The translations under genes and the position numbers were made by a program. A stretch of DNA of 64,000 bases, from contig JAJEIE010000018.1 in the NCBI GenBank assembly GCA_022827625.1, positions 124,001 through 188,000 of the forward strand. The letters run 5' to 3'. Shown here in pieces: positions 21,968-27,590 of this stretch (positions are counted from its first letter, which is position 1; every line of letters starts with the position of its first letter). The notes under the pieces were generated by a model. It did no database searches. It was not told the origin of the DNA and saw nothing but the letters and a program-made list of their open reading frames with translations. Origin of the DNA: Candidatus Poribacteria bacterium. GTDB taxonomy: Bacteria; Poribacteria; WGA-4E; WGA-3G.

Positions 21968-22100
21968 AGGATTTGACGATTCGGAGTTACGTTATCAATC
22001 TTCCCGCCAAAACCCATGCTTTAGAATCAACGGTATGAATGCCTTATTGGCATTCACCGGGGGATGTAGGCGGGCATTGGTTTTGTGTGAAAAAATAAGT

Positions 22101-22129
22101 TTGACTTTTACCTAAAAATGTGGTATAAT
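22101..22129 (+). promoter_or_regulatory. Promoter of tnpB
   Basis: TTGACT at 22101-22106 and TATAAT at 22124-22129 with a 17-base spacer, preceding a 5' leader with a strong hairpin. Confidence 0.65.
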
Positions 22130-22143
22130 TAACGTATCAGGTT

Positions 22144-22184
22144 GGCAGACATACAACGCATTGTCGCTTGACAATGTGTCTGCC
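22144..22184 (+). other. Leader hairpin upstream of tnpB
   Basis: Nested inverted repeat: GGCAGACA (22144-22151) pairs with TGTCTGCC (22177-22184), and CATTGTC (22159-22165) with GACAATG (22170-22176), leaving a seven-base bulge. It lies between the promoter and the ATG at 22226 and could modulate tnpB expression. Confidence 0.55.
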
Positions 22185-22225
22185 TCCCACGTTGTAGGGG
22201 ATAAACACCTGATACCTGATATATC

Positions 22226-23350
22226 ATGAAAACCTACAAATATAAGTTTGTTCACCAATCGAATTGTATTCGCATTGGTAACTTGCTTGATGATATGTGG
22301 CAAGTGCACGAATACTTCCATAAGTGGCAGCGGCAACGCTATAAAGAGGGACTGTCGTATGCTAACTATCATGCCATGTCCGCTCATCTGACCGAGTTGA
22401 AACGGACAACGCACCCCCATTGGAAGGCTTTGCCAAGTCAAGCGATCCAACAAGAGTTGCGGCGTATTGATACTGCGTATCAGCGTTTTTTCAATAAACT
22501 TGGGGGTAGACCGCATATCAAACCTCGCCATAAGTTTAAGTCGATTACGTTTCCGGGTCAAGCGGGTTGGGAACTGAAAAACAATCGTATCACACTGAAC
22601 TTTCGTAAATGGGAAAACGGTAAATGGCGATATGATCGCGTGCCTTATACTTTTTTCAAACACCGCCAGTGGCATGGAAGCATTAGGCGTATTACAATTA
22701 AGCGTGATAACTGCGGCGACTATTGGCTTTGCATCATCACGAACTACACGGACATGGAAAGACTGCCAACAACAGGTCAGAGCGTTGGGGCAGACTTCGG
22801 CATGAAAGACGCGTTTCTCACACTCAGCAATAGCGAGAAAATACAATCGCCACAATTCTTGAAACAGTCCTTGAAAGAACTTCGCACACTCAATAAGGCA
22901 CTGAGTCGAAAAGTCAAAGGTTCGCGTAACTGGTGGCGGTATGTTCTTCAACTTACAAGGTTGTATCGGCATATCGCTAACCAACGCAGAGATTGGCATT
23001 TCAAACTTGCCACTGACCTCTGTAAGCGGTTTGATATGATCGTCACCGAGACACTGAATCTTGACGGCATGAAACGGCTTTGGGGACGCAAAGTCTCTGA
23101 CCTCGCCTTTAGGCAATTTGTTGAGATACTCGAATACAAGTGTTTCAAACATAAGCGTGAGTTCCGTCAAGTCGGACAGTGGACTGCGACAACAAAACCT
23201 TGTTCAGGGTGTGGGCATCACAACAAACATCTAACACTTTCAGATAGACAGTGGACATGTCCTGAATGTGGCTCTCACCACGACCGAGACGTAAACGCTG
23301 CGATAAACATTTTACGGGCTGCTTGTGATCCCGTTGTGGAGCAGATGTAA
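22226..23350 (+). CDS. tnpB: RNA-guided endonuclease TnpB family protein
   Basis: 374 residues, full length for the family. By family, TnpB is a programmable nuclease guided by an omega-RNA transcribed from the element's right end; it favours element persistence. The RuvC catalytic triad is intact: Asp190 (GADFGMKD), Glu276 (VTETLNL) and Asp355 (HDRDVNAAINI). The zinc ribbon between them has Cys326, 329, 345 and 348 (CSGCG...CPECG). The N-terminal wedge/REC part is standard (HEYFHKWQRQRYKEG). No disruption seen, so probably active. The long open frame on the opposite strand is only its shadow. Confidence 0.92.
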   Translation: MKTYKYKFVHQSNCIRIGNLLDDMWQVHEYFHKWQRQRYKEGLSYANYHAMSAHLTELKRTTHPHWKALPSQAIQQELRRIDTAYQRFFNKLGGRPHIKPRHKFKSITFPGQAGWELKNNRITLNFRKWENGKWRYDRVPYTFFKHRQWHGSIRRITIKRDNCGDYWLCIITNYTDMERLPTTGQSVGADFGMKDAFLTLSNSEKIQSPQFLKQSLKELRTLNKALSRKVKGSRNWWRYVLQLTRLYRHIANQRRDWHFKLATDLCKRFDMIVTETLNLDGMKRLWGRKVSDLAFRQFVEILEYKCFKHKREFRQVGQWTATTKPCSGCGHHNKHLTLSDRQWTCPECGSHHDRDVNAAINILRAACDPVVEQM

Positions 23351-23425
23351 GACCAAAGATGGCAAACTGCTACGAAGCACAAGTCCCAGCGTTTACGCTG
23401 TGGGTGCCTTGACTCCCGTGATGCA
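23300..23425 (+). ncRNA. Possible omega-RNA (reRNA) region of tnpB
   Basis: By analogy with studied TnpB systems the guide scaffold overlaps the 3' end of tnpB and continues to the right end. Here the DNA after the stop has a hairpin CCCAGCG-TTTA-CGCTGTGGG (23385-23404) and ends near TGACTCCCGTGATGC. Position and boundary are inferred from the family; no RNA evidence is possible from sequence alone. Confidence 0.3.
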
Positions 23426-23496
23426 AGAACCGCCTTCAGAAATTTCCCATACCCCTAACACCCCTTGAAGTCCTTACACAAAAAGACATCTTTGTT

Positions 23497-23918: not shown

Positions 23919-26180
23919 ATGAACCAAACTGATTTCCTTCAAATCGGACAGCAGAAGGGCTATATTGAACTCCTCAACGAAGGGACAACAATCCACTACA
24001 TCACTCCGAATAAAAAAGACAGATTTACCGACCCCGAAGAACAAGTCCGTGCCAGATTTTACGTCGAGTTAATCGAGTATTTCCAATACTCCCCAAACCG
24101 AATAGATTTAGAAGTACAGGTTCCACGCAGAACGCCTTCCGATCGCGCCGATATTGTCGTCTTTCAAGATGATGAAAAGAAAGATCCCTTCATTGTGGTT
24201 GAATGCAAAAAGGACGGAATCTCTGAAGCAGAATTCGATCAGGCAATTGAACAGGCTTTTGGCAATTGTAACTCTTTAGGTGGATATTACACCGCTGTCA
24301 TTGCAGGGAATACGCGGCGTTCTTTTGATGTCAAAAACTATAAACCGGGCGAACGCTCCGAAAATATCATCGCCGATCCACCCATTGGATACGGCAAAGT
24401 TCAAGAATGGCGGTTTCTGAAAGGTGTCCCGAATTCGGAGCTTACTGTCATCGAAAGGAGCGATCTCATCCGTGTGCTTGAGAAATGCCACGATACACTC
24501 TGGCAAGGTGGGAAATTTGCGCCTACACAAGCATTTGACGAACTCGCCAAAATCCTTTTCATCAAAATCCGAGATGAAAAGAAAGCAAGACGGGACGGTG
24601 AACCCTACGATTTTCAAATAAAAACGCATGAAACCTCAGAATCCGTTGCCAATCGCATTAACGCACTCTATCAGGAAGCAAAAGCGCAAGACCCAGAGGT
24701 ATTTACTGAAAATATTGAGATTGATGAAAATCGACTGTTTTCTGTTGTCAATCACTTGCAAGGGATTAGTCTCAACCAGACCGATTTAGACGTGAAAGGT
24801 GTTGCTTTTGAGCGATTCTTAGGCAACTTTTTCAAGGGCGAAATCGGGCAGTTTTTCACGCCTCGCGAAGTGGTTGAGTTCATGGTTGATATGGTTACGC
24901 CTCACCATGAAAATTTAATCCTTGATCCCGCCTGCGGTTCGGGCGGTTTTTTGTTGCATGCCATGGATTACATCCGCAAGCAGGCATCTGACTACTACGA
25001 GGAGGGAAGCCGCGAACACTATACCCACTGGCACGATTTCGCCGAAAAGCGACTCTTCGGAATTGAAGTCAACGACTCAATCGCTCGTGTTGCGAAAATG
25101 AATATGATTATCCACGATGATGGGCATAGCAACGTCATTAGCAACGATGCGCTCGTCGGTTTCGACAACCTCTACAACCAGCACAGAGAATTTGAAGAAG
25201 ATAAATTTGATGTAATCCTTACCAATCCACCTTTCGGGGCAGTCATCAAACAATCCGAATTACCGTATCTTAAAAATTACGAACTCGGCAAAGGAAATGC
25301 CTCTCAAAAGACTGAAATTCTATTTCTTGAACGTTGTTTCGATTTCCTCAAGTGGGAAACTGGAAAACTCGCCATTATCCTACCCAATGGTATCTTAACC
25401 AATTCCTCATTGCAATACGTCCGGGACTACATTGAACGCCACTTCCAAATTCTCGCTGTCGTTTCACTGCCACAGATTGCCTTCTCACATTACGGTGCGG
25501 GTGTGAAAACGTCCATCTTATTTCTCCGAAAGTTCTCGAAACAGGAATATGAACGTTATCAAGCCGCCATCAATCAAATTACTAAAAAGAACGAAGCGAT
25601 TTATGTGCCTCAGATCACGGCACTTGAGGATGAACGTAAAGCAGAATTATTAAAAGGTTCTCCAAAACAAGCTTTCACGATGGAGACTTTTAGACCGAAA
25701 TTCCAAGAGAGCTTGGACAAAATTGATACCCTAAATCAGAAACTTGACAAAGCACCAACGAAAAAGGTGCAAACCCTCCGCTCTCTTTTCTTCCCGGAAA
25801 TGGAGCCTACACCTATCACAGAATTTGAATTGTTTGACACGCAAACCGCACGGGCGGAACTTAAAAAACAGACAAGCGAATTGAACGCACTGGAGAAAGA
25901 ATACAAAGCAGCGTTTAAGGCAGCAGCCGAACCGGAGTGGGAGAGCCAAATCAAGTCGGAATACAAAGAGAAGATTGACGTTGTTAAAGAGGAATGGGCA
26001 GATAAAAACGCAGCGGACATCCGCGAATGGGTTCGAGAAAACGCCAATCATCCCATCTTTATGGCGATTGCTGAGCGCATCGGCTATGACGCAACGGGAC
26101 GCAAAGACGATGTTAACGACCTTGATACCATCCACGCTGCGTATCGAAAATTCACCGAGAACCCAGATTTTTTCGCGTAA
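23919..26180 (+). CDS. Nuclease-DNA adenine methyltransferase fusion (type I/IIB-like restriction-modification)
   Basis: 753 residues combining a nuclease-like N-terminus and an N6-adenine methylase. Residues ~30-130 resemble the HSDR_N domain of restriction enzymes: Asp78 (DRADIVVF) and Glu95-x-Lys97 (VVECKK) form a PD-(D/E)xK site. Residues ~190-560 are an HsdM-type methylase with GQFFTPREVVEFM, SAM motif I LDPACGSGGF (about 334-343) and catalytic NPPF (about 437). The C-terminus is charged and coiled-coil-like. A specificity subunit gene follows but no HsdR translocase. This is like the BcgI-type arrangement, in which one chain both cuts and methylates. Consensus promoter 45 bases upstream. 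Confidence 0.85.
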   Translation: MNQTDFLQIGQQKGYIELLNEGTTIHYITPNKKDRFTDPEEQVRARFYVELIEYFQYSPNRIDLEVQVPRRTPSDRADIVVFQDDEKKDPFIVVECKKDGISEAEFDQAIEQAFGNCNSLGGYYTAVIAGNTRRSFDVKNYKPGERSENIIADPPIGYGKVQEWRFLKGVPNSELTVIERSDLIRVLEKCHDTLWQGGKFAPTQAFDELAKILFIKIRDEKKARRDGEPYDFQIKTHETSESVANRINALYQEAKAQDPEVFTENIEIDENRLFSVVNHLQGISLNQTDLDVKGVAFERFLGNFFKGEIGQFFTPREVVEFMVDMVTPHHENLILDPACGSGGFLLHAMDYIRKQASDYYEEGSREHYTHWHDFAEKRLFGIEVNDSIARVAKMNMIIHDDGHSNVISNDALVGFDNLYNQHREFEEDKFDVILTNPPFGAVIKQSELPYLKNYELGKGNASQKTEILFLERCFDFLKWETGKLAIILPNGILTNSSLQYVRDYIERHFQILAVVSLPQIAFSHYGAGVKTSILFLRKFSKQEYERYQAAINQITKKNEAIYVPQITALEDERKAELLKGSPKQAFTMETFRPKFQESLDKIDTLNQKLDKAPTKKVQTLRSLFFPEMEPTPITEFELFDTQTARAELKKQTSELNALEKEYKAAFKAAAEPEWESQIKSEYKEKIDVVKEEWADKNAADIREWVRENANHPIFMAIAERIGYDATGRKDDVNDLDTIHAAYRKFTENPDFFA

Positions 26181-26222
26181 GCCCCGATAGAGAAAATCAA
26201 ATTTTTCTTACCTATCGGGGCG
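26181..26222. terminator. Hairpin directly after the methyltransferase stop codon
   Basis: GCCCCGATAG (26181-26190) and CTATCGGGGC form a perfect 10-bp stem around a ~21-base loop that itself contains GAAAA/TTTTC. There is no trailing T tract. It overlaps the region where the specificity-subunit reading frame should begin. Confidence 0.5.
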
Positions 26223-26335
26223 ATATTTTAGGTAGGTTGGATCCGAATTACATAAAAAATATTTCCTATATCAATAATGTCAATACGCGTTACCCGTTAG
26301 TTCCATTAGGTAGTTTGCTCATGGAACCACCAATG
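26187..26335 (+). pseudogene. hsdS: 5' fragment of the specificity-subunit gene, out of frame
   Basis: Translated in the frame of GAT at 26187, this stretch gives residues typical of the N-terminus of type I specificity subunits (IFLTYRGDILGRLDPNY, then RYPLVPLGSLLMEPP) ending at ATG 26333. The continuation expected after EPP, YGANEIAVNGDPQTDVRYIR, is present but in the +1 frame from 26337. One surplus base at about 26336 therefore breaks the gene. No ATG starts this fragment; the first candidate is TTG 26237. Confidence 0.65.
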
Positions 26336-26381
26336 GTATGGTGCGAACGAGATAGCAGTAAACGGCGATCCTCAAACGGAT

Positions 26382-27590
26382 GTGCGATATATTCGGATTA
26401 CCGACATCGATGATCATGGAAACCTCCGAGGTGATGATTGGAAAACAGCAAAGAGAATTGATAAAAAATACGCTCTTGCTCGGAATGATCTTTTGTTTGC
26501 CAGAAGCGGTGCAACAGCAGGTAAGGCGTTTATCCATAAAAGAGAAGATGGTGAGGCTATCTTTGCGGGATATTTAATTCGTTTCAGATTTGATGAAACG
26601 CGTGTAAATCCTTTCTTTGTGTTTTACTATACCCTTTTGAGTCGATATAGGCTTTGGGTGCAGATAATACAAAGACCATCAGGACAACCGAATATCAACT
26701 CAAGGGAATTTAAGGCGTTTGAAATCCCTCTCCCACCCCCAAGTATTCAAAATCACATCGTTACCATCATGAAATTTGCTTATGCCCAGAAAAAGCAAAA
26801 AGAACAGGAGGCAGAAGCACTTTTGGATTCAATTGATGATTATGTGTTGACAGCGTTGGGAATTGAGATGCCAGAGGCGGACGAAAGAAAGTGCTTTGTA
26901 ATTAATGCTAACGAAACGGTTGGTAGACGGGTTGATTCATTCTACTACCAATCTAAATTTAGAAGCGTTGATCAAATTATGGAAAACGTGCAGTTTGATG
27001 TTTTCAATTTGGGTGCCTTGATAAACGAAATTTCCAGTGGTGCTACCCCAAAAGTTGATGAAAACTATTATACGGATTCGTCTGGTATTCCGTTTTTAAG
27101 AGTCCAAAATGTTACCAATTACGGAATTGATTTGAGCGATGCAAAATTCATCACACGGGAAGTTCATAACGGCATGCTTAAACGTTCGCAACTAAAAAAA
27201 GACGATCTGGTATTTACGATAACTGGTAGAATTGGAAGTGTCGCGGTTGTCCCAGATAACTTTGAAGGAAATATAAATCAGCATTCTGCTCGATTCCATC
27301 TTAAAAATCAGATTACAAACATTACCATCAACCCCTATTACGTTGCAGCTTTTCTTAACTCCCAACTTGGTAAATCTTTGGCTATTAGAGAAGTGACGGG
27401 TGGCACCCGCCCCGCTTTGGACTATAAGGCTCTTAAATCCCTCAAAATTATTCTTCCGCCAATTGAACTTCAAAATGAAATCGTCACAGAGATTAAAAAT
27501 TGCTTTACAAAAGTTTCGGAGCTGAGACGCGAAGCCGATGCAGTTGTGGAACAGGCGAAAGAGAGAGTTGAGCGGATTTTACTGCGATAG
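26382..27590 (+). CDS. hsdS: Restriction-modification specificity subunit (HsdS-type), 5' frameshifted
   Basis: About 402 residues in the open frame from GTG 26382. Contains the end of target-recognition domain 1 (RSGATAGKAFIH, PSGQPNINSREFK, IPLPPPSIQNHIV), a helical spacer, and a complete second domain (LINEISSGATPK, FLRVQNVT, LVFTITGRIGSVAVV, PALDYKALKSL, ILPPIELQNEIV) followed by a C-terminal helix. The subunit would choose the DNA site for the upstream methylase-nuclease. GTG 26382 is not a natural start: coding similarity continues upstream in this frame to 26337 and then jumps frame at 26336. Either a recent frameshift mutation or a sequence error. Confidence 0.8.
   Translation: MRYIRITDIDDHGNLRGDDWKTAKRIDKKYALARNDLLFARSGATAGKAFIHKREDGEAIFAGYLIRFRFDETRVNPFFVFYYTLLSRYRLWVQIIQRPSGQPNINSREFKAFEIPLPPPSIQNHIVTIMKFAYAQKKQKEQEAEALLDSIDDYVLTALGIEMPEADERKCFVINANETVGRRVDSFYYQSKFRSVDQIMENVQFDVFNLGALINEISSGATPKVDENYYTDSSGIPFLRVQNVTNYGIDLSDAKFITREVHNGMLKRSQLKKDDLVFTITGRIGSVAVVPDNFEGNINQHSARFHLKNQITNITINPYYVAAFLNSQLGKSLAIREVTGGTRPALDYKALKSLKIILPPIELQNEIVTEIKNCFTKVSELRREADAVVEQAKERVERILLR

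Follow-up and report, generated by a model that had tools for sequence, protein, structure and literature searches.

TnpB is the ancestor of Cas12, and to our knowledge little is known of how its dose is controlled in nature. In ISDra2, the motif flanking the element is TTGAT. Elements that carry tnpB without tnpA (tnpB-only, or IS1341-like) have ends in common with their tnpA-bearing relatives. The 5' end of tnpA in Salmonella IS200 forms a stem-loop that hides the ribosome site, and a processed small RNA arises from it, according to PMC12594629. RAGATH-18-derived RNAs form a conserved class tied to IS607 TnpB and are reported to be guide RNAs downstream of tnpB (PMC11061315). Here we describe a tnpB-only element of the IS200/IS605 type in a 64,000-nucleotide stretch of contig JAJEIE010000018.1 (the window), from the genome of a Candidatus Poribacteria sponge symbiont (5.02 Mb in 41 contigs). 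Alignments of its copies reveal a structured RNA leading the tnpB message, and we lean towards the view that this leader stands in for translation coupled to tnpA.

The element has much in common with ISDra2 TnpB (PDB 8bf8, 8ex9 and 8h1j): a RuvC triad, a TNB zinc finger, a right-end omega-RNA followed by a guide, and a 5' flank motif that matches the insertion target. It differs in its TTAT/TTAC flank, its own promoter, its structured leader and its lack of tnpA. From other tnpB-only elements, the window's group is set apart by a conserved leader RNA between promoter and tnpB. The RAGATH-18-derived RNAs lie on the opposite side of the gene, whereas this leader lies upstream and is additional to the omega-RNA. 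The nearest published idea in the literature searched, from PMC12594629, is the structured IS200 tnpA 5' end; both are structured 5' ends of IS200/IS605-family transcripts, with translation control described there and proposed here, but the window leader is a pseudoknot with tandem pairing partners before tnpB and no Shine-Dalgarno (SD) motif.

The leader covers about 95 nt, beginning where the transcript is predicted to start and reaching the start codon of tnpB (Table 1). The initial annotation had given tnpB its own promoter, and a sigma-70-type promoter does precede the gene. It had also described a leader hairpin; a structured leader indeed exists, but "hairpin" understated a pseudoknotted RNA, and a second hairpin, in the left end at 22025-22059, proved to be a repeat inserted there. 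Upstream of tnpB, 12 copies in the genome shared one architecture while differing in sequence. When 27 leader copies from this genome and its relatives were aligned (alignment A1) with the 5' strand S paired to its second partner, S2, 95.4% of 889 cells were paired and covariation was 0.457, a value reached by none of 500 shuffles and compared with 0.04-0.09 for slid versions. The window leader alone folded at -37.5 kcal/mol (z -4.9) with the pseudoknot left out. A covariance model of the leader, R1, also built without the pseudoknot, was used to gather 64 sequences (alignment A2, 63 distinct rows). The pseudoknot had no part in producing this alignment, and 95.2% of its 438 cells were paired with a covariation of 0.789, against 0.158 for shuffled (0 of 500 reaching the value) and 0.04-0.13 for slid controls. 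Judged by this covariation, the mRNA leader is a conserved pseudoknotted RNA filling the slot between promoter and ATG.

Several other roles could be imagined for such an RNA. Pairing between the internal loop of one hairpin and the loop of a second resembles the topology of the ZTP riboswitch; a ligand-sensing riboswitch is nevertheless very improbable, as the pseudoknot lacks a fixed sequence (37 different 5' strands among the 64 rows), unlike a pocket built on that pairing, and no metabolic gene is linked to it. The leader might also be cut off as a small RNA or self-cleaving ribozyme comparable to the IS200 5'tnpA RNA: the compact pseudoknot begins at the predicted 5' end of the transcript, and IS200 tnpA 5' ends yield a stable processed RNA of ~111-125 nt (PMC12594629). 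We regard this as improbable, given that an Rfam search with the leader returned no family match at E<=10 and that we saw by eye no resemblance to a known catalytic core. Folded single strands are used in IS200/IS605 transposition, which raises the idea that the structure matters as single-stranded DNA rather than as RNA. Against this, the leader is absent from tnpA+tnpB elements that have the same ends, and G-U cells exceeded A-C cells in the leader alignment (56 vs 17), which points to selection acting at the level of the sense RNA, not of the DNA; we give this idea hardly any credence.

A promoter-like pair was present in 58 of 63 leader copies, and in those 58, S began 4-6 nt past the -10 box, suggesting that the mRNA probably begins with S. 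Strand S has two tandem partners, which end just before the start codon. Neither S1 alone nor S2 alone could be preferred as the partner completing helix P1: S:S1 was paired in 90.6% and S:S2 in 96.1% of cells across the 63 distinct rows, both with double changes. In nearest-neighbour ensembles that ignored the pseudoknot, both pairings had intermediate probabilities (5-95%) for 27 of the 64 copies, and one pairing exceeded 0.8 in 44 (S1 in 31, S2 in 13); in the window leader, S1 dominated at 0.96. With S paired to S2, a stem would close 4-5 nt before the ATG and hinder the start, and with S paired to S1, S2 and the ATG region would be free and the start permitted. Access to the start would then depend on which pairing of S wins. 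Within the 20 nt preceding the start, all 64 leader copies were free of SD-like 4-mers.

The leader is closely tied to tnpB. Across 84 Poribacteria genomes, a single phylum, R1 matched in 49, comprising 38 of 38 genomes of the genus together with two other genera of the order. In three closed related genomes, TnpB followed 49 of 55 leaders; conversely, a leader was present at 41 of the 48 full-length TnpB genes. At 30 further leader loci, tblastn placed TnpB downstream in 28, mostly from the ATG of the model, and the remaining two translate as TnpB-like N-termini. As a control of specificity, R1 found no match in 99 Poribacteria loci (744 kb) fetched for another motif. Outside Poribacteria, it matched none of six plasmid TnpB loci, and one exact pattern was found in no IMG/VR contig, samples too few to generalise from. 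This near confinement to tnpB would also be expected of an operator bound by TnpB or its ribonucleoprotein in feedback control, with any switch in ribosome access secondary, and P2 and the joining nucleotides are conserved although the sequence of the pseudoknot drifts, which looks as if a protein reads P2 and the overall shape. We consider an operator unlikely, since at least one structurally intact leader (L299) stands before a gene other than tnpB with its ATG in the same place, and since the leader bears no likeness by eye to the omega-RNA scaffold.

Comparison with tnpA-bearing relatives bears directly on the role that we favour. Full tnpA+tnpB elements of the relatives had the same type of left-end hairpin (CCCCATGCTTTAGCTTGCGGGATGTAG in L228) and the same promoter core, and in them tnpA fills the promoter-to-tnpB slot that the leader fills in tnpB-only elements. 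The start of tnpB overlapped the stop of tnpA (ATGA) at all five junctions read (L226-L230). R1 matched one of 32 Y1_Tnp loci scanned, L254; here (L205/L254, genome G007) a tnpB-only element directly follows a truncated tnpA, into which it was probably inserted. On a tree of 64 proteins, the "leader" label required five changes, at least three of them forced by well supported branches (L221, which contains Ns, was left out of both the tree and the R1 scan). The tnpA-associated L226 was sister to L037, a leader-bearing copy from the window's genome, with support of 100/95, some long branches of the tree being unsure, and the DNA similarity of this pair begins at the tnpB start. The tree changes and this boundary indicate that the promoter-to-ATG module has been exchanged more than once.

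We therefore propose the following for the two kinds of element, as a reading we think somewhat probable. In two-gene elements, tnpB would be translated by coupling to tnpA through the ATGA overlap, a job that the leader RNA would take over in tnpB-only elements, where it would set the output of TnpB. TnpB with its omega-RNA would cut copies of the unoccupied site flanked by TTAT, and the element would be restored by copying. Mobility would need TnpA in trans.

Several observations weigh against this proposal. Both the role of the leader and cleavage by the nuclease are inferred from sequence. The 500-shuffle controls of covariation do not correct for relatedness among the copies. A balanced S1/S2 switch is not general, because one pairing exceeded 0.8 in 44 of 64 copies. 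Absence of an SD motif is suggestive only, as many open reading frames (ORFs) of the window also lack one (an SD 4-mer was found in 15 of 45 mechanically chosen long ORFs, compared with 10% of random windows). Seven of the 48 full-length TnpB genes had no R1 leader, and six of the 55 leaders had no tnpB. The window copy itself may be immobile: a repeat breaks its left-end loop, and its genome lacks an IS605-type tnpA of the sort seen in the relatives.

The exceptions to the pairing of leader and tnpB were varied. R1 found no match at the seven leaderless TnpB loci (L304-L310). At L309 and L310, tnpB follows a serine-recombinase-like gene, an IS607-type arrangement by our reading; L308 appeared leaderless, and we saw no leader by eye at L304 or L305. 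By eye, L306 and L307 represent a different tnpB-only subfamily with a smaller pseudoknot leader of its own and a repeated S partner (TTACCTTATC / GATAAGG...GATAAGGTAA; TTGTAGC / GCTACAA). Among leaders without an intact tnpB, those of L300 and L301 precede a truncated tnpB, and L298 and L302 are partly decayed. The L299 leader, with all helices kept by eye, precedes a 121-aa membrane-type protein whose ATG lies exactly at the tnpB position; the match at L303 (33 bits) precedes a secreted-type protein, and L297, outside the three closed genomes, has a leader before a small membrane protein. At these last three loci, it is possible that host genes captured the promoter-leader module.

More tentatively, the leader may represent a kind of cis-acting pseudoknot RNA not described before, one that trades places with tnpA in Poribacteria IS605 elements, provides an SD-less start for translation of a nuclease, acts as a two-state S1/S2 switch and is occasionally captured by a host gene, as at L299; we regard this wider reading as possible, short of probable. 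No counterpart of the leader was found in the literature searched, mostly titles and the openings of abstracts together with passages of PMC12594629 and PMC10278001, and none of that literature joined "Poribacteria" and "TnpB".

The protein encoded behind this leader is, as far as its sequence was tested, an ordinary member of the IS200/IS605 TnpB proteins. Its ORF scored 233.8 bits against the guided_TnpB profile NF040570 (cut-off 100), fell short of the stricter IS200_TnpB exception model (229 vs 425 needed), and matched both Pfam OrfB_IS605 and Cas12f1-like_TNB above their cut-offs. Alignment to ISDra2 TnpB (8bf8; E 6e-42) placed an intact RuvC triad at D190, E275 and D355; two CxxC pairs supply the zinc cysteines C326/C329 and C345/C348. 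The three catalytic acids, the four cysteines and the orphan state of the gene reported in the initial annotation were all borne out: no Y1 transposase tnpA was found inside or beside the element, and the three Y1_Tnp genes of the genome all lie elsewhere. Absence of other copies had been named as grounds for rejecting the element, and we found the opposite, with 22 TnpB matches in its own genome and one or more in each of the 38 genomes of the genus. The interrupted left-end loop and the many tnpB fragments in the genome could be taken to mean an ordinary dead tnpB with a functionless leftover for a leader; with the ORF and all catalytic residues intact, and covariation of the leader in 63 distinct copies, this was the least credible explanation that we considered.

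Copies in the same genome agreed through ...GGGTGCCTTGAC and then diverged completely, fixing the right end and the start of the guide, as an alignment of copies had initially been expected to do. This terminal sequence had eight exact copies in the genome (0 for its reversed control). For the left end, sites free of the element in relatives read ...GTTACGTTAT joined directly to TCCTGTGATGCAAG. We built a 20-base probe of the unoccupied site by joining TTAY to the opening bases of the right flank and allowed it <=2 mismatches. It hit 49 places, the element's own right end among them, spread over 31 of the 38 genomes of the genus, compared with 2 for the reversed control; in 25 of 37 relatives, the match began with TTAT by our reading of the list. 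Seven unoccupied loci were read with their flanks (L291-L296 and L311), the one in G010 with zero mismatches. Six carried TTAT and L294 TCAT, and all seven fell, as far as we could read, at the 3' end of a gene whose product has an ...L(T)(I/V)RSYVIPV.QE-like sequence, into which the window's left flank also runs. These loci and the matching flank delimit an element inserted without target duplication, shifting both ends from the 22010 and 23430 initially proposed, and they yielded the flank motif, the presumed transposon-associated motif (TAM), whose deduction had also been suggested. Insertion after a short motif, subterminal hairpins and the lack of target duplication are the features of IS200/IS605 ends, and all three are seen here, the left hairpin having its loop broken in the window copy. 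Of 60 leader-bearing copies, 49 had TTAT or TTAC at a distance of 20-36 nt ahead of the left-end loop, compared with 11 when a control window was used; several of the exceptions are members of other subfamilies, and four of the 64 copies were set aside (one at a contig end, three without a recognised loop). The gene family whose 3' end serves as insertion site occurs across the genus, with ~1-5 near matches per genome having any. Because the family is found genus-wide, the guide would address many relatives.

At the right end, 35 nt past the tnpB stop, lies the hairpin CCCAGCGTTTACGCTGTGGG, which the initial annotation had noted just after the stop codon beside a plausible guide RNA region. 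We aligned 40 copies of this region (A3; GTGGAG...(TATCAC or TTGAC)), omitting L034 and one of two L219 segments from the 42 found. Its three helices were paired in 91.8% of cells with a covariation of 0.425, a value reached by none of 500 shuffles, with slid versions at 0.03-0.11. A single right-end sequence showed no excess stability in RNAfold (z 0.09), so covariation is what supports the scaffold, and Rfam gave nothing credible for the right end, its single match, at 11 bits where the gathering score is 55, being put down to chance. The covariation supports the predicted omega-RNA-type scaffold at the right end, with the right flank as its predicted guide, and the plausible guide region has become one whose start is mapped to the base. 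The 20-nt guide length is assumed from known TnpB systems.

Table 1. Positions of the element and its parts in the window.
Feature	Position	Strand	Basis
Flank motif TTAT, insertion target, presumed TAM	21992..21995	+	unoccupied sites in relatives
Whole element, 1418 bp, tnpB-only IS200/IS605 type	21996..23413	+	unoccupied sites and right-end comparison of copies
Left-end hairpin CCCATGCTTTAG...GGGATG, loop interrupted	22013..22066	+	uninterrupted in L040 and L228
Dispersed palindrome AATCAACGGTATGAA..TTCACCG inside left-end loop	22025..22059	+	repeat search, comparison with L040
Sigma-70-type promoter TTGACT-17-TATAAT	22101..22129	+	direct reading
Pseudoknotted leader RNA (R1 match 22129-22232)	22134..22221	+	covariation in A1/A2, fold
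Leader strand S (P1 5' strand), GUAUCAGG	22134..22141	+	position after -10 box
Leader P2 GGCAGACA/UGUCUGCC, enclosing P3	22144-22151 with 22177-22184	+	alignment
Leader pseudoknot UACAACG/CGUUGUA	22152-22158 with 22190-22196 (in P4 loop)	+	covariation
Leader P3 CAUUGUC/GACAAUG	22159-22165 with 22170-22176	+	alignment
Leader P4 UCCC/GGGA	22185-22188 with 22198-22201	+	alignment
Tandem S partners CCUGAUA CCUGAUA (S1 from 22208, S2 from 22215)	22208..22221	+	ends 4 nt before ATG
tnpB, predicted RNA-guided endonuclease, 374 aa	22226..23350	+	ORF, profile matches, alignment to ISDra2 TnpB
Right end with putative omega-RNA scaffold; 3' hairpin at 23385-23404	23336..23413	+	40-copy alignment
Predicted guide, right flank TCCCGTGATGCAAGAACCGC	23414..23433	+	start is mapped right end; length assumed

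The sister copy L040 (CCCCATGCTTTAGCTTGTGGGATGTAGG) has the left-end hairpin without interruption, and so do tnpA+tnpB elements, L228 among them. We rejected the hairpin within the left-end loop of the window copy as part of the leader or as a structure specific to the element: it is absent from the L040 left end and is one copy of a dispersed palindrome, AATCAACGGTATGAA(stem)TTC(A/C)CCG, with 56 matches in the window's genome and none for the reversed control. This palindrome was present in 33 of 60 genomes searched (its own and relatives; L056-L085 and others), and its stems covary. Copies often lay between the arms of another hairpin, and could even be self-nested (L082/L026); contiguous flanking stems of >=7 bp were seen at 17 of 153 copies, compared with a mean of 1.7% and a maximum of 4.6% when flanks were re-paired. 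A bold reading is that the palindrome is a mobile hairpin that favours hairpin loops.

The genome's own Y1 transposases (C20, C24 and C7) were not supported as a source of mobility for the element, since by our reading different palindromes surround them and the ends of the element are absent (L031-L033). These solitary Y1 transposase-like genes (L031 and L032, C20 and C24; L033, C7) are flanked by palindromes of the TCTATAGACATAGCACTCCGCTGGAGTGC and GTAGTAGTGCGATTCATCGCAC types, an arrangement that resembles REP-associated RAYT genes. Directly downstream of the element, translations read as a type I restriction-modification locus (23919-27590), with a methylase-like part at 23919-26180 and a specificity-like part at 26382-27590.

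In these Poribacteria, a compact RNA module appears repeatedly to take the place of the transposase gene before tnpB. A leader of ~95 nt makes it directly testable how a tnpB-only element expresses its nuclease and why it persists without tnpA. The leader would represent a new family of structured RNAs, one that might serve as a portable starter of SD-less translation.
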